Positions 40,458 through 47,914 of a DNA stretch of 64,000 nucleotides are shown here, one piece after another. Numbering within the stretch: the first letter of the stretch is position 1; the number at the start of each line of letters is the position of its first letter. The stretch is from an uncultured Nostocoides sp. GTDB lineage: Bacteria > Actinomycetota > Actinomycetes > Actinomycetales > Dermatophilaceae. The notes below the pieces were generated by a model. The model worked only from the letters and a program-made list of their open reading frames with translations, did no database searches and was not told the DNA's origin. The position numbers were made by a program, and so were the translations under genes. Where the stretch lies: NCBI GenBank assembly GCA_937873315.1, contig CALMQX010000033.1, forward strand, positions 124,001 to 188,000. The letters are read 5' to 3'.

Positions 40458-41204
<747 letters not shown>

Positions 41205-41264
41205 GCCGCCCGGCCCTTGCGCCCTGCACTTCCCTTCAGCCCTCCCGAAAGGCACACTGCCCCC

Positions 41265-42023
41265 ATGCTCTTGCACGGTAAGACCCTCCTGGTCACCGGT
41301 GTCCTGATGGACTCCTCGATTGCTTTCCACGTCGCCCGCTTGGCGCAGGAACAGGGTGCCGAGGTGGTGCTCACCTCCTTCGGGCGCACCATGAAGATCA
41401 CCTCGACGATCGCCCGACGGCTGCCCCGCACGCCACCCGTGGTCGAGCTCGACGTCTCCAGCGAGGAAGATCTGAGTGCCCTCGCCGATCGGGTGCGAGA
41501 GCATGTGCCGCACCTGGATGGCGTCGTGCACTCGATCGGCTTTGCCCCGCAAGGCGCATTCACCTTCATGGACGCCTCCTGGGAGGACGTGTCCACGGCG
41601 GTGCAGATCAGTGCCTTCTCGCTGCAGGCGCTGGCCAAGGCGGCGCTGCCGCTGATGTCAGCGGGCGGCAGCATCGTGGGATTGACCTTCGACGCGCGCT
41701 ACGCCTGGCCGGTCTACGACTGGATGGGCGTCGCCAAAGCAGCCTTCGAGGCCACCAACCGGTACCTGGCCCGTGATCTCGGACCGCAGGGCATTCGGGC
41801 CAACCTGGTTTCGGCCGGCCCGATCCGCACCACGGCCGCCAAATCCATCCCTGGTTTCGAGCGCTTCGAGCAGGAGTGGGGCACTCGCGCGCCATTGGGA
41901 TGGGATGTCAATGACGCCGAGCAGGCTGCCCGCGCCTGCGTCGCGTTGCTGTCGGACTGGTTCCCCGCCACGACCGGCGAGATCGTTCACGTGGACGGCG
42001 GTTTCCACGCCATGGGCGTGTGA
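41265..42023 (+). CDS. fabI: Enoyl-[ACP] reductase (NADH), FabI/InhA type
   Basis: A 252-residue enzyme that completes each elongation cycle of fatty-acid synthesis. N-terminal nucleotide site LLVTGVLMDSSIAFHVA lacks the classical TGxxxGxG, as is normal for this family; the active-site Tyr and Lys are in YDWMGVAKAAFEA. The mycobacterial homolog is the isoniazid target. ATG at 41265 is preceded at about 13 bases by GAAAGG. A Mur-ligase gene begins one base after its stop. Confidence 0.95.
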   Translation: MLLHGKTLLVTGVLMDSSIAFHVARLAQEQGAEVVLTSFGRTMKITSTIARRLPRTPPVVELDVSSEEDLSALADRVREHVPHLDGVVHSIGFAPQGAFTFMDASWEDVSTAVQISAFSLQALAKAALPLMSAGGSIVGLTFDARYAWPVYDWMGVAKAAFEATNRYLARDLGPQGIRANLVSAGPIRTTAAKSIPGFERFEQEWGTRAPLGWDVNDAEQAARACVALLSDWFPATTGEIVHVDGGFHAMGV

Positions 42024-42024
42024 G

Positions 42025-44211
42025 ATGACCGGGACCGAGCTGCGCGAACTGCGGGTTCTCGAAGGACCGAATCTCTATTTCACCAAGCCAGCGGTCAAGG
42101 TGCGTCTCGGACTGCAGGCACTGGCAGCGCTCTCGCCCTCAGCGATGCGAGCGGTCTGCCGCGAGGTCGGTTTGGACCGGGCTCAGGTCGGTGCGGCCGA
42201 TTCTGGTCAACGACAGCGGGCCCTGTTGCGCGTCACCGAGCGGGCGCTGCGCACGCTGGCGGCCGATGCTGGCGTACGGCGACTGGGGGTTCGGGTGCGG
42301 CCCGGCGGCGACCCCACGGAGGTAGTTGCGGCATTCGTCTGGCGCCATCGGGGCCGTTCCGAGCAGTTGGGCAGATCCCTGGCCGAGGTGCTGGACGGGG
42401 TAGCGACGGGGGGTCGGCTCGCCGAACTCGTCGCCGCGCAGCGGGACGCCTTGACTGCGGCATCAGGCGGCCCGCCGCCGCGAGTGATCACCCCGCGTAT
42501 CCCGGTTGCCTCGATCACCGGGACCAATGGCAAGACCACGACGACTCGCCTGCTCGCCCACCTGGGCATGACGGCCGGGCTCACCACCGCCTGGAGCTCG
42601 ACTGACGGCGTCGTGGCGATGGGCGCCATGGTCGAGCCCGGTGACTACTCCGGTCCCGCGGGCGCTCGGGCTGTGCTGGAGACGCCGGGAGTTCAGCTCG
42701 GCATCCTGGAGACTGCCCGTGGAGGCATGCTGCTCAAGGGTCTGGGCGTGACGCACAATGACGTTTCGGTCGTCACCAATGTCTCCGCCGACCACCTGGG
42801 CATGCAAGGCATCGACACCGTCGACCAACTCGCTGAGGTCAAGGCCATCGTCACCAAGGTCACCCGGCCGCGGGGCTGGTCGGTGCTCAATGGCGATGAC
42901 CCGCGGGTGTGGGCGATGCGCACCGGGACGCGGGCTCGTCCTTGGGTGTTCACCCTCGATCCGGCGTCGCCGGCGATCCGCGAGGCGCTCAGCGTGGGCG
43001 GGCGTGCGATCACGGTCCTCGATGATCACGTCACGGTGCTCTCGGCCGATGCCGTCCCGGATCGCTTGGTGCCTGTCCTGGACTTGCCAATGACTCTCTC
43101 CGGACTCTCGGTTCACAATGTCGCCAATGCCCTCGCCGGCGCGGCGGCCGGACTGGCGCTTGGGCTGCCACGCGAGGCCGTCGTTGCGGGGCTGCGCAGC
43201 TTCGCTCCCGATGATGTGCTGAATCCGGGCCGGATGAACACCTACTCGGTGCCGGTGGAGGGCGGTGAGGTGACGGTTATCGTCGACCTCGCCCACAACG
43301 AGGCGGGCCTTGAGGCCCTCATGGATGTCTGCCGGGGGCTCGTCGCTCCCGGTGGCCGCGTGCACTTGGGCCTCGGCACAGCGGGGGACCGGACCGACGA
43401 CATCCTTCAGGCGCTAGGCGAGATTGCTGGCGCGCGCGCAGACCACATTGTCGCCGCCCACAAGACGAGGTACCTCAGGGGTCGCACGGTCGAGGATATG
43501 GAGGCGCAGTTGCGCATCGGTCTCGCCCGCTCTGGGGTGGCCGACATCGCCTCCTACCTGACCGAGCTTGAGGGCCTGCAAGCGTGCGTTCAGGCGGCCA
43601 GCGATGGGGACGTCGCAGCCATCATGTGCCACGCCGACCGGGAACTCATTGCCGAGTGGATAGGCGCAGCTGGCGGTCGCGCGGACACCGCCGTGGACAT
43701 CCGACGCAAGGTCATTCGCGCGCGCGGAGAGCATCCGGCCGAGGCGGACATTGTGGCCCTGTGGGAGCTCGATGACGAGGACGCCCTGGTTGCCCAGGGG
43801 GCCCGGCTGTATGCCGCCTATCCCGGGGATGCCCGGGTGGCTTATGAATACGGCGGGACGATGGACAGCAGCGGGCATGGTGAGCAAGCGGTGCCCTTGT
43901 ACCGCGAGGCGCTGGCGGGCGACCTGCGCGAGCCCTATCGACACCGCTGCTCGATCCAACTGGCGTCGACCTTGCGCAATCTGGGCCGTCTCGATGAGGC
44001 GAGGGCCGAGATCGAGCAGGTGGTCGTCGCCTATCCCGACAGCCTCGGAGTGCTGGCCTTTGCCGCGCTCATTCGCCACGACTGCGGCGAGGCCACCCTG
44101 GCCCTCAGCGGCCTGTTGGCGGCCTTGGCCGCGACCTCGACCGACCCCGACGTGGCGAGGTACCGCCGATCGATCGGGCGCTACGCCCAATCACTCGGCA
44201 GTGACCGCTGA
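42025..44211 (+). CDS. Cyanophycin synthetase-like Mur ligase lacking ATP-grasp, fused to TPR domain
   Basis: A 728-residue protein of unusual build. Residues 1-145 resemble the N-terminal domain of the CphA encoded next door (RVLEGPNLY at the start; ERALRTLAADAG and the VVAAFVWRHRGRSEQLGRSL segment align with CphA 94-150). The ATP-grasp domain, about 270 residues in CphA, is absent. Residues 158-570 are a Mur ligase: GTNGKTTTTR, SGPAGARAVLE, ETARGGML, VTNVSADHLGMQGIDT, VLNGDDPR and DLAHNEAG, each with a close counterpart in CphA. From about 590 a TPR domain follows (YEYGGTMDSSGHGEQAV, then ASTLRNLGRLDEAR). ATG is one base after fabI. The 3' end overlaps cphA by 21 bases. Amide-ligase activity is inferred; substrate unknown. 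Confidence 0.82.
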   Translation: MTGTELRELRVLEGPNLYFTKPAVKVRLGLQALAALSPSAMRAVCREVGLDRAQVGAADSGQRQRALLRVTERALRTLAADAGVRRLGVRVRPGGDPTEVVAAFVWRHRGRSEQLGRSLAEVLDGVATGGRLAELVAAQRDALTAASGGPPPRVITPRIPVASITGTNGKTTTTRLLAHLGMTAGLTTAWSSTDGVVAMGAMVEPGDYSGPAGARAVLETPGVQLGILETARGGMLLKGLGVTHNDVSVVTNVSADHLGMQGIDTVDQLAEVKAIVTKVTRPRGWSVLNGDDPRVWAMRTGTRARPWVFTLDPASPAIREALSVGGRAITVLDDHVTVLSADAVPDRLVPVLDLPMTLSGLSVHNVANALAGAAAGLALGLPREAVVAGLRSFAPDDVLNPGRMNTYSVPVEGGEVTVIVDLAHNEAGLEALMDVCRGLVAPGGRVHLGLGTAGDRTDDILQALGEIAGARADHIVAAHKTRYLRGRTVEDMEAQLRIGLARSGVADIASYLTELEGLQACVQAASDGDVAAIMCHADRELIAEWIGAAGGRADTAVDIRRKVIRARGEHPAEADIVALWELDDEDALVAQGARLYAAYPGDARVAYEYGGTMDSSGHGEQAVPLYREALAGDLREPYRHRCSIQLASTLRNLGRLDEARAEIEQVVVAYPDSLGVLAFAALIRHDCGEATLALSGLLAALAATSTDPDVARYRRSIGRYAQSLGSDR

Positions 44212-47046
44212 ACTCTCCACGTCACCGCGTGATGCGGTGTCACCGTCCTCCTGAGCCTGGCTCTGCAGCGCGTCCACATCGAGGTCCGGATCGCCCACGC
44301 CATCCTTGGAGTGCGAACCCGGTTGGGCCTGCTGGGTCATGGACTCCAACTCGTTCATCACGGCCGCGTGCTGGTCGACGCTGAGCACGACGATGTCGCC
44401 CGGGTTCGCGCGCGCCATCACGTGACGAACCGCCTCGACCTCGTCGAGCACGATCTCCACCTGGCGGCAGTGCACGCCTTCCTGACCGATCCGCGAACGG
44501 ACGCCCTCAGCGATCAGGCCAGCCGTCTCACCAGGCTTGCGCCCCCGCAGGCGGGAGTCCTCGCGGACGACGATCACATCGAAGTGGCCAGCGGCGACCG
44601 CGCCGAGTTCACGCATATCGTCGTCCCGCCGATCGCCGGCCGTGGCGATCATGCCGATTCGCGAGATCCGGCCGAGGTCCGCCGCGCCGGCCTTGGCGGC
44701 GGCATACCGCTCGACGAACTCGCCGAGCACGCGCATCCCAGGAGCGTTGTGGCAGTAGTCGACAATGACATCGACGTTGTGCACGCTCACCTGGTTCATC
44801 CGGCCGGGGGAGAGGTAGTACGACGTGGTGAAGGTGCGCAAACCCTGACGAATCTCGTGCAGACCAGCACCCGTCGCGAATGCCGCCCCCGCGGCGGCCA
44901 TGGCATTGGCGACATTGAACATCGCCGTGCCACCGAAAGTTGCGGGAAGCAGGTGAGTCCAGGCGAGCTGCATGGAGCGGCGGCCGTGCCGAATGACGAT
45001 CATGTCGCCCTTGTCGGTCGGCTCCAGGACGATGGCTCGGCCACCCCGACGACAGTGGTCGTCGACAAGTTCGCGGACCTTGGAGCCCGGTGCAGCGATG
45101 GTGAACCAAATGACCTCGCCCGAGCAACGGCGACGCATCTTGCGCACCAGCGGGTCATCGGCGTTGAGTACCGCCACACCATCGCGCGGCACGGCCTCGA
45201 CGACGACGGCCTTCACATCGGCCAGTTGCTCCAAAGTGTCGATCCCGCGCAAACCCAGGTGGTCGGGCGCCACATTGGTGACCACCGCGACGTTATTGCG
45301 GTCGTAGCCCAGACCCTCGCGCAGGATCCCGCCGCGGGCGACCTCCATCACGGCGAAGTCGACGCGCGGATTCTGCAGGACCATTCGCGCGGACTTGGGG
45401 CCGGAAGCATCGGCCTTGAAGACCAGGCGCTCATCGATGACGATGCCGTCGGTCGAGGTCATACCGACCTTGCGGCCCAGACCCTTCATGATGTGCGCGA
45501 TCATCCGGGACGTGGTGGTCTTGCCATTGGTGCCGGTCACCGCCACGATCGGCACGCGGGAAGGGGTGCCCGGGGGGAAGAGCAGATCAATCACCGGCTT
45601 GGCGATGAACTGGGGCTCGCCCACCGTGGGGTGAGTGTGCATCCGGAAGCCCGGTGCGGCATTCACCTCGCAGATCGCACCCCCTGACTCACGCACCGGA
45701 GCGGCAATATCGGGGCAGATGAAGTCGATCCCCGCGACATCCAGCCCGACCAGGCGGGCGGCCTCCTCGGCGATCTCGATGTTGTCCGGGTGGGCGTCGA
45801 AGGTCCGGTCGATCGAGATACCACCGGTCGACATATTGCCGGTGAGAGCGAACTTGACCATGGTCCCGGCCGGCGGCACATCGGCCATCGTGAAGCCCTG
45901 TTCGCGGACCAACTCCAGTGCCGCGTCATCGACCTTGATCTTGGTCAGCACCTTCTCGTGCCCGACGCCGCGGCGAGGGTCGGCATTGGTGATGTCCACC
46001 AGTTCGGTGAGCGTGTGGCTGCCATCGCCCATGACGTGGGCGGGCACGCGCTCGGCGATCGCTTGCATGCGGCCACCCACGATCAGGCACCGGTAGTCCT
46101 TGCCGGTGACGAAGGATTCGACGATGACGTACCCGCGACGGCTCTGCTCCTCGGCCACCGTGAAGGCTGCGCGCACGTCGTCATCGGACTGCAGGTCCAG
46201 ACAGACGCCCCGGCCGTGGTTACCATCGAGCGGCTTGACGACGACGGGGAAGCCGATCCGACGGGCCGCGGCCACCGCGCCATCGACCGTGCGCACGCTC
46301 TCCTGCTTGGGCACGGGCAGTCCGGCGGAGGCGAGGAGTTTGGTGGTCAGGTCCTTGTCACTGGCGATGTCGACCGCGAGGGCGCCGGTCTTGCTGGTCA
46401 TGGTGGCGCGGATGCGCTGCTGATGCACGCCCTGCCCGAGTTGGACCAGGCTGGCGCTGTTGAGCCGAATGAAGGGGATATCGCGGCTGACGGCTTCCTC
46501 GATGATGGCGCCGGTCGAGGGCCCGAATGCCGTGCGCTCGGCGCGTCGCAGGAAGTACTCCAACTCGGTGTCCCAGTCGAAACCCTCCTCGGCCGACACC
46601 AGGTGGTTGACCAAGCGAACCGCCAATGCGCCGGCAGCCAGGCCCACGCCCTCGTCGGTGTAGCCGTAAATCACGTTGTACCGGCCAGGCTGGCCCTTGA
46701 CCATCCGGGTCTTACCGCGGCGCTGATCGTGTCCGGCCTCTTGCTGCAACTGCAACGCGATGTGCTCGGCGACATGCCCGAGCCAGGTGCCTTCGCGCAG
46801 CCGGTCGACGAAGCCACCGCGGACACCCCGCGAGCAGGTGTGACTCCAGATCCCTGGAAGCATCTCCAGGAGCCGATCGGTGAAGCCGTCAATGGTGTCA
46901 CTGGGGTAACCCTCGAGCACCCCGAGGTCGACGACGAGATGGATGGACGGCTCATAGGACCAGATATTGCCGCCGCGGTAGACGCGGGATTCGACGATGC
47001 TCAACTCGGGAGCGAGAGGTCCTGTGGGGGTGGGGCGCTCGGGCAT
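44191..47046 (-). CDS. cphA: Cyanophycin synthetase
   Basis: CphA (951 residues) builds the storage polymer multi-L-arginyl-poly-L-aspartate. Domain order is N-terminal domain (1-160), ATP-grasp (about 220-488; KPLDGNHGRGVCLDLQ and CEVNAAPGFRMH), which adds Asp, and Mur ligase (from about 498; VTGTNGKTTTSRM at 503-515), which adds Arg to the side chain. All motifs are intact. A low-complexity acidic tail of about 50 residues (DPDLDVDALQSQAQEDGD) follows the conserved part and is partly encoded opposite the end of the Mur-TPR gene. ATG at 47046 lies one base from a start predicted by a TAGCCT box that overlaps the cphB stop codon. Confidence 0.96.
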   Translation of the reverse strand: MPERPTPTGPLAPELSIVESRVYRGGNIWSYEPSIHLVVDLGVLEGYPSDTIDGFTDRLLEMLPGIWSHTCSRGVRGGFVDRLREGTWLGHVAEHIALQLQQEAGHDQRRGKTRMVKGQPGRYNVIYGYTDEGVGLAAGALAVRLVNHLVSAEEGFDWDTELEYFLRRAERTAFGPSTGAIIEEAVSRDIPFIRLNSASLVQLGQGVHQQRIRATMTSKTGALAVDIASDKDLTTKLLASAGLPVPKQESVRTVDGAVAAARRIGFPVVVKPLDGNHGRGVCLDLQSDDDVRAAFTVAEEQSRRGYVIVESFVTGKDYRCLIVGGRMQAIAERVPAHVMGDGSHTLTELVDITNADPRRGVGHEKVLTKIKVDDAALELVREQGFTMADVPPAGTMVKFALTGNMSTGGISIDRTFDAHPDNIEIAEEAARLVGLDVAGIDFICPDIAAPVRESGGAICEVNAAPGFRMHTHPTVGEPQFIAKPVIDLLFPPGTPSRVPIVAVTGTNGKTTTSRMIAHIMKGLGRKVGMTSTDGIVIDERLVFKADASGPKSARMVLQNPRVDFAVMEVARGGILREGLGYDRNNVAVVTNVAPDHLGLRGIDTLEQLADVKAVVVEAVPRDGVAVLNADDPLVRKMRRRCSGEVIWFTIAAPGSKVRELVDDHCRRGGRAIVLEPTDKGDMIVIRHGRRSMQLAWTHLLPATFGGTAMFNVANAMAAAGAAFATGAGLHEIRQGLRTFTTSYYLSPGRMNQVSVHNVDVIVDYCHNAPGMRVLGEFVERYAAAKAGAADLGRISRIGMIATAGDRRDDDMRELGAVAAGHFDVIVVREDSRLRGRKPGETAGLIAEGVRSRIGQEGVHCRQVEIVLDEVEAVRHVMARANPGDIVVLSVDQHAAVMNELESMTQQAQPGSHSKDGVGDPDLDVDALQSQAQEDGDTASRGDVESSAVTAE

Positions 47047-47053
47047 GCGAGCC

Positions 47054-47059
47054 AGGCTA
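47054..47059 (-). promoter_or_regulatory. -10 hexamer of cphA, overlapping the cphB stop
   Basis: TAGCCT (minus) predicts a start at 47047. Its TAG is the cphB stop codon, so cphA could be read both from the cphB promoter and on its own. Confidence 0.4.
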
Positions 47060-47914
47060 TGCCTTGGCCAGGGCCCGCGTCACCACCAGATCAGGATGCA
47101 TCTCAACGAATCCCGTGAGGGACATGGTGGTGAGGTCAAAAGTGGCGCCCGCAGGCAAGGTGTGGACCACCGCACCCGAGACCAGTAGCGGCGCACCGCG
47201 GCGTGCGTCCGGGGCATCGGTGTGCGCGAAGCGAGCGTCCACCACGAAGACCGCCCCCCTGCCGCGCACGGTGAACTCACGGCCGTCGGTCACGATGATC
47301 GCGGTGTCCTCGTCGATGCCGATTCCGACCAACTGGGGGGAGGGCGCGATCACCGACATGAGTCGGCCGTAGCGCGAACGCTGATCGAAGTGCTGGTCGA
47401 TGACGCACCCGGTGATGAGCCCCAGGCCGGCCGAGAGTTGGCTGGTTCGCTGCTTGGGCGTGGTGCCCTCTTCCCCCAGGGAGATCATGTAGTCACTCAT
47501 GATCGAGGCGCCCGCTGAGGTGCCGCCGATGATCGCCCCGCGGGCATACGCGCGGTGGATCGCGTCCCCCGCGGGCGTCCCCAGGAAGAACTGCGACAGT
47601 TTGAGCTGGCTGCCGCCGCCCATGAAGATCCCGGTCGCCGCGTCCAGCGTGGCCACCATCTGCGGATCGTGTGCCGCATGCCGACTTGTCGGATTGACCG
47701 AGGTCACCTCGGCCGCACCGAATGCCGTGAACGCGGCGGTGTAGGCCGTGACCACCTCGTCCTGGAAACTCGAGGCCGTCGGGATCACCGCGATCCGCGC
47801 GCGCTTGCCGCCCGCTAGTTTGACGAACCGGCGCAGCAGACTGCCGCGGCCAGTGCGCGCCTCGGCGCCGCCGATGATGAACAGGGTGGGTTGATGACGC
47901 TCGCGAGACGGCAT
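47057..47914 (-). CDS. cphB: Cyanophycinase
   Basis: A 285-residue serine exopeptidase (peptidase S51-like) that cuts cyanophycin to beta-Asp-Arg dipeptides. The nucleophile is S133 in IGGTSAGASIMSDYM; Q103 in MGGGSQLKLSQF matches the substrate-binding loop; the rest follows CphB, including GLGLITGCVIDQHFDQRSR. No signal peptide, so it acts inside the cell. ATG at 47914 coincides with a start predicted from TAGGCT. cphA follows after ten bases. No isoaspartyl dipeptidase gene is in the window. Confidence 0.94.
   Translation of the reverse strand: MPSRERHQPTLFIIGGAEARTGRGSLLRRFVKLAGGKRARIAVIPTASSFQDEVVTAYTAAFTAFGAAEVTSVNPTSRHAAHDPQMVATLDAATGIFMGGGSQLKLSQFFLGTPAGDAIHRAYARGAIIGGTSAGASIMSDYMISLGEEGTTPKQRTSQLSAGLGLITGCVIDQHFDQRSRYGRLMSVIAPSPQLVGIGIDEDTAIIVTDGREFTVRGRGAVFVVDARFAHTDAPDARRGAPLLVSGAVVHTLPAGATFDLTTMSLTGFVEMHPDLVVTRALAKA

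Follow-up and report, generated by a model that had tools for sequence, protein, structure and literature searches.

A CphA-like Mur ligase without an ATP-grasp domain is conserved beside cyanophycin synthetase in Actinomycetota

Introduction

Cyanophycin is a bacterial nitrogen-storage polymer that has been studied for a century and is used in biotechnology. CphA2, a relative of the cyanophycin synthetase CphA1, retains the ATP-grasp domain and has lost the Mur function. In the Mur ligase MurE, the incoming amino acid is bound by the DNPR loop. The zinc peptidase site in the N domain of CphA1 makes primers and is present in about 83% of CphA1 proteins (PMC9262961), and a chain analog sits between the N domain and the Mur core of CphA (PMC9427784). 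The ATP/Mg ligands of TeCphA1 are Lys499, Thr500, Thr522 and Glu558 (PMC9427784); in SuCphA1, Glu607 contacts the polymer and the D585A/H586A replacement inactivates the M site (PMC9262961). In the Tetrasphaera MAGs TET1 and TET2, an activated-sludge study found two copies of cphA; it saw lower expression of the shorter copy and summed the expression of both (PMC10687191). Here we describe a gene that converges on cphA in many Actinomycetota and encodes a CphA-like protein consisting essentially of the N and Mur domains, which we term the CphA-associated N-Mur ligase.

Results

The window analyzed is a 64,000-nucleotide stretch of DNA from an uncultured Nostocoides sp. of the Dermatophilaceae. 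An open reading frame at 42025..44211 on the plus strand, with an ATG start, encodes an N-Mur ligase of 728 aa with a C-terminal TPR domain (Pfam, NCBIfam). It begins two bases past the stop of a fabI-like enoyl reductase gene (41265..42023, plus strand), itself preceded by a fabG-like SDR gene (40476..41204, plus strand). On its other side lies a complete cphA-cphB pair, and the convergence on this pair noticed in the first-pass annotation is confirmed: cphA (44191..47046, minus strand) encodes cyanophycin synthetase 1 in full, its N, ATP-grasp and Mur domains all present and its CxnHxxEH site intact (Pfam, TIGR02068), and cphB (47057..47914, minus strand) is assigned to cyanophycinase from its sequence, its conserved place beside cphA and the name cyanophycinase in annotated relatives. 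The 3' ends of the N-Mur gene and cphA share 21 bases. The convergent order with cphA is constant, and the upstream genes vary between classes. We considered the fabG-fabI pair as a functional partner and rejected it, since it is conserved in Actinomycetes only and distant classes differ upstream while keeping the cphA side. The pair (40476-42023 of the window), preceded by moaA and a SURF1-like gene, is kept in Dermatophilaceae-type genomes and in Nocardioides and not in the distant classes.

The 728-aa protein matches the Pfam families Mur_ligase_M (residues 164-375, 1.2e-15) and Mur_ligase_C (residues 402-534, 2.5e-10) and has no Pfam match to ATP-grasp at E<=1, whereas the neighboring CphA gives RimK/ATP-grasp matches. 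Against the NCBIfam cyanophycin synthetase profile TIGR02068, its residues 157-537 align with profile positions 477-850 at 335.2 bits, below the 850-bit cut-off, and the neighboring CphA scores 1149.6 bits across its entire length; the Mur domains of the two proteins are 38% identical. Both sequence and structure alignments show the N domain running directly into the Mur domain. The AlphaFold model (mean pLDDT 85.6) superposes through residues 4-550 on CphA1 residues 1-877 with Z 47-48 over 522-527 residues at about 3 A (7wae: Z 47.9, 522 residues; 7lgq: 523 residues, 3.0 A), while chains of MurE, MurC and MurD match only about 320-385 residues with Z about 27-32 (MurE about 330-385, Z about 30). 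Because the superposition spans both domains, the N and M domains keep their CphA arrangement, and the protein as modeled is a CphA1 from which the ATP-grasp domain has been excised. Thus the build claimed by the first-pass annotation, an N domain and a Mur domain with no ATP-grasp and a TPR at the C-terminus, is borne out by Pfam, profile-profile and structure comparisons, the CphA superposition that it had proposed matches over residues 4-550, and every motif that it listed is present in the protein by sequence and alignment. The CphA-type Mur domain it described is there too, with limits that need adjusting: core and lid occupy residues 156-550 (42490..43674, plus strand; Pfam, TIGR02068, structure) rather than 158-570.

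The CphA N-like domain comprises residues 1-150 (42025..42474, plus strand; hhalign, structure). The Pfam model of the CphA N domain, PF18921, does not match residues 1-145, but a comparison of residues 1-150 with CphA N domains by hhalign gives a probability of 86.9% and E=4.2e-6 over 133 columns, and the structural match to CphA begins at residue 4. A chance resemblance is therefore excluded in spite of the silence of PF18921, and the likeness of residues 1-145 to CphA-N, previously aligned by eye, stands. The domain lacks the Cx19HxxEH zinc site. The HxxEH zinc peptidase motif is found in 0/70 family members, as against 29/29 of the neighboring actinobacterial CphAs.

The Mur domain retains its catalytic equipment. 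The P-loop GTNGKTT occupies residues 166-172 (42520..42540, plus strand), and K170, T171, T193, E229, D256, H257, K273, D421, H424 and R485 are invariant in 70/70 members; the catalytic residues are also kept throughout an alphaproteobacterial sister clade. In TeCphA1, the P-loop Lys and the Mg ligands correspond to K170, T171, T193 and E229; in SuCphA1, D585/H586 correspond to D256/H257. Since the TeCphA1 ATP/Mg ligands and the SuCphA1 DH residues are all kept, the N-Mur proteins are expected to be active ligases.

The surroundings of the active site have been remodeled. Gly213 (42661..42663, plus strand) aligns with Ser542, which is present in 27/27 CphA1 proteins; glycine is found in 25/25 N-Mur proteins and in 70/70 of the actinobacterial set. 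K278 (42856..42858, plus strand) occupies the position of the polymer-contacting Glu607 of SuCphA1 and is Lys/Arg in 63/70 members. Across the actinobacterial and alphaproteobacterial groups together, Tyr483 and Gly213 are found in 25/25 proteins and Arg/Lys replaces Glu607 in 22/25. Further replacements relative to CphA1 are His650 to Ala/Val, Arg778 to Thr/Ser and Phe793 to Ala/Ser. The amino-acid loop, HKTRYLRGR (residues 479-487; 43459..43485, plus strand), aligns with DNPR of MurE and ED..RGR of CphA; the ED..RGR of CphA has become YLRGR, with an invariant Tyr483 and the acidic residue gone, and the Arg that aligns with that of DNPR is retained. The altered loop is compatible with the addition of a different amino acid, which would be one other than arginine, presumably held via its carboxylate. 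The non-arginine reading rests on the alignment with MurE, because the papers that we examined do not map the arginine pocket of CphA1.

The C-terminal TPR domain (TPR_5; residues 605-724; 43837..44196, plus strand) matches PF12688 at 87 bits (1.4e-24; cut-off 24.2 bits). It is a lineage-specific fusion. The basic form of the family is about 560-580 aa long without a TPR, and 37/70 members are shorter than 600 aa and TPR-less; the TPR occurs in families f1 and f5, which belong to the order of the window, although some genera of f1 have only a weak TPR or none. It resembles free-standing TPR proteins encoded on Streptomyces plasmids (43.7%, L129), and no stand-alone TPR homolog was found near the unfused N-Mur genes. 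As a late addition that most of the phylum lacks, the TPR cannot have a central part in the family. Binding of CphA or the granule by the TPR was suggested when the sequence was first read; the domain does not, however, define or target these proteins as a family.

The distribution of the gene follows that of cphA. The figures given here are raw genome counts that ignore shared ancestry. In 29 named loci of Dermatophilaceae/Intrasporangiaceae and Nocardioides, the N-Mur gene lies near cphA and is convergent with it wherever both are present on the stretch. A sample of 149 genomes of the order contains 11 with both genes, 138 with neither and 0 discordant. In the class sample, 38 genomes have a match, with 31 encoding both, 7 cphA alone and 0 the N-Mur gene alone; the seven belong to f29 (two full CphAs each) and to f35 and f22 (divergent or alphaproteobacteria-like CphA). 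Among 149 genomes of the window's own family, 93 have a match, about 91 of these with a second CphA-type match among the matches listed, and 56 have neither. Rescoring found a CphA-type match besides the N-Mur gene in each of two genomes, G652 and G786, and one 58%-complete genome (G897) matches the N-Mur query and has no CphA match. Elsewhere in the phylum, the N-Mur gene extends to other classes and nearly always accompanies cphA; one matching genome without CphA is a 67%-complete bin. Some genomes of genera such as g407 and g446 have neither gene, which looks like joint loss. The tie to cphA suspected at the outset is thus upheld by near-perfect co-occurrence in order, class and family, and the family is not one found mainly in cphA-less genomes. 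Since f35 and f22, and f29 with its second full CphA, carry cphA without the N-Mur gene, cyanophycin can be made without the N-Mur ligase.

Several individual genomes depart from the common pattern. In the one-contig genome G924 (L136, L137) the N-Mur gene and cphA are far apart and both retained. The f29 genomes G157, G180 and G197 (L101, L103, L105), in which the N-Mur gene is absent, each have two complete cphA-cphB sets; the second CphA has lost the acidic ED pair and its loop reads PSxx.LRGR, a hint, suggestive only, that a full CphA may have acquired a second side-chain specificity. At L110 (G409) an actinobacterial CphA clusters with the alphaproteobacterial CphAs and has lost the zinc site of its N domain.

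Related proteins occur outside the Actinomycetota. Plasmids of Ruegeria and Shinella, and an unverified record labeled Roseateles, carry cphB-cphA-'Mur ligase family protein' operons (L123, L130, L119, L124). The Mur proteins encoded there are 578-601 aa long, have no ATP-grasp domain and bear the GDYSGP..GA and YLRGR signatures. Together with the actinobacterial family they form one clade apart from the CphA1s (SH-aLRT 98, with a UFBoot value of 94 that lies just below the usual 95 line). We propose a clade of CphA-associated N-Mur ligases, the members of which are separate from CphA1, carry YLRGR and GDYSGP..GA, lack ATP-grasp and have a cphA partner. The N-M build may have arisen by loss of the ATP-grasp domain or may descend from an ancestral N-M form, the root among the CphA1s not being fixed by the tree. 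One genome of the window's own family, G944 (L135, G944:C255:1-9000), lacks the usual set and carries in its place a cphB-cphA-mur operon like that of the alphaproteobacteria, which it probably acquired by horizontal transfer.

The 'Mur ligase family' proteins of Deinococcus and Legionella were considered as members and rejected, as the tree places them outside the clade. The Deinococcus plasmids (L121:4975-7149, L125:4699-7215, L120:4636-6717) encode CphA paralogs with a missing or degenerate ATP-grasp domain and an EGPDGRGR sequence in the RGR loop; this is a loss separate from the N-Mur family. A Legionella adelaidensis plasmid (L122:4275-6143) encodes a 622-aa CphA-like protein with an N domain in which HxxEH is intact and a Mur domain, and without ATP-grasp. 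Genes for cyanophycinase and isoaspartyl peptidase then follow, and the stretch examined has no full cphA close by.

Discussion

CphA1 alone suffices for cyanophycin, and a second ligase that accompanies it almost invariably across the Actinomycetota and recurs in Alphaproteobacteria points to an unrecognized step. Our preferred reading, which we advance tentatively and with a little less than even confidence, is that the N-Mur protein is catalytically active alongside CphA, using ATP to attach an amino acid other than arginine to the side chains of cyanophycin or its primers. By analogy with CphA1, a cyanophycin chain or short primer would place its C-terminal Asp in the space between N domain and Mur core; ATP would activate the free beta-carboxylate of this Asp as an acyl phosphate, and attack by the amino acid would create an isopeptide bond. 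Without an ATP-grasp domain the enzyme could not lengthen the Asp backbone, and without the zinc site its N domain would hold the chain and have no means of cleaving it. With an amino acid other than arginine, as the remodeled loop suggests, the enzyme would cap or decorate chains made by CphA. We infer catalysis, acceptor and amino acid alike, together with any role that the TPR may have, from the comparisons given above, and an acceptor other than cyanophycin is conceivable.

The replacement of Glu607 by a residue of opposite charge in most members may mean that polymer binding has been lost, and in the loci compared the gene invariably lies close to both cphA and cphB. Both features would suit a ligase acting on a small molecule or breakdown product instead of the polymer, for example one that remakes beta-Asp-X dipeptides released by cyanophycinase; we regard this as unlikely, since the N domain, which binds the chain in CphA, is kept across the phylum and superposes with the M domain as a unit. 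Retention of the N and M domains and not of the elongating ATP-grasp domain, together with the strict co-occurrence with cphA and the requirement of CphA polymerization for primers (PMC9262961), could also be explained by a starter enzyme that supplies CphA with short beta-Asp-X primers for new chains, either making them from free amino acids or trimming them. This is less likely still, because the Asp backbone cannot be built without an Asp-adding domain and the self-priming HxxEH site is kept in every neighboring actinobacterial CphA examined. A non-catalytic role, in which a decayed cphA copy serves to regulate CphA or the granule or acts as a scaffold for either, is very improbable: the lower expression of the shorter Tetrasphaera copy (PMC10687191) and the repeated emergence of ATP-grasp-less paralogs, as in Deinococcus and Legionella, would agree with it, but the divergence is specific and conserved, and catalytic residues that are invariant in the family and kept in the alphaproteobacterial sister clade rule out decay.

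If N-Mur proteins are side-chain ligases of the kind that we prefer, a wider consequence can be entertained, and we consider it possible but doubtful: the cyanophycin of Actinomycetota and some Proteobacteria may not be plain multi-arginyl-poly-aspartate, a second ligase, retained together with CphA across a phylum, adding another amino acid to the side chains of Asp or to the ends of the chain. Such an addition would change the charge, the solubility or the speed of attack by cyanophycinase. The question raised is what cyanophycin outside the cyanobacteria really consists of and how it is capped, for instance in the Tetrasphaera relatives that accumulate phosphate in wastewater, for which the transcripts of the short and the long 'cphA' were pooled.

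The N-Mur family is real and conserved and has a functional tie to cyanophycin, and it is apparently uncharacterized. Literature on Nocardioides cyanophycin synthetase, on the cyanophycin 'Mur ligase family protein' and on H16_A0774 yielded nothing on the gene, with subscription journals incompletely covered. The second cphA copies of betaproteobacteria may also be of the N-Mur type. One paper, citing Adames 2013, gives R. eutropha two CphA homologs and reports that the wild type does not produce cyanophycin (PMC11362209), and the accessible part of a bioinformatic survey of cyanophycin genes does not mention the N-Mur gene (PMC10206079). Its only prior sighting was most probably as the 'shorter copy of cphA' in the Tetrasphaera MAGs. 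As the TET1 contig (L022) carries exactly an N-Mur gene and cphA, the shorter TET1 copy is, on gene content, most probably the N-Mur ligase gene. The published TET1 'cphA' expression (PMC10687191) probably sums cphA and this distinct gene.

Comparison with the described systems places the N-Mur ligase closest to CphA1 (TIGR02068; 7LG5, 7LGQ, 7WAE), with which it shares the fold and placement of the N domain, the Mur core and lid, the ATP/Mg and DH residues and about 38-40% identity across the Mur domain. It differs from CphA1 in lacking ATP-grasp and Cx19HxxEH, in the replacement of Ser542 by Gly and Glu607 by Lys/Arg, in the YLRGR loop and, in one order, in the additional TPR. The alphaproteobacterial Mur proteins have the same N-M build without ATP-grasp, the same signatures and a place beside cphB-cphA, but their N-terminus is strongly diverged (the hhalign match to CphA-N is not significant), their genes are co-directional with cphA and they have no TPR. 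In the Tetrasphaera TET1 contig the N-Mur gene (731 aa) is likewise convergent with cphA (927 aa), whereas the TET1/TET2 paper treats the shorter gene as a copy of cphA and does not recognize it as lacking the Asp-adding domain (PMC10687191). MurE shares the Mur fold and has a DNPR loop equivalent to residues 481-485, but the N-Mur ligase has no UDP-MurNAc domain and scores 80.3 bits against TIGR01085, for which the cut-off is 257.3; the window's genome has a separate murE of its own. CphA2 is likewise a specialized CphA relative without the zinc motif of the N domain (PMC9262961), and the N-Mur family is its reverse, having no ATP-grasp domain and keeping the Mur residues.
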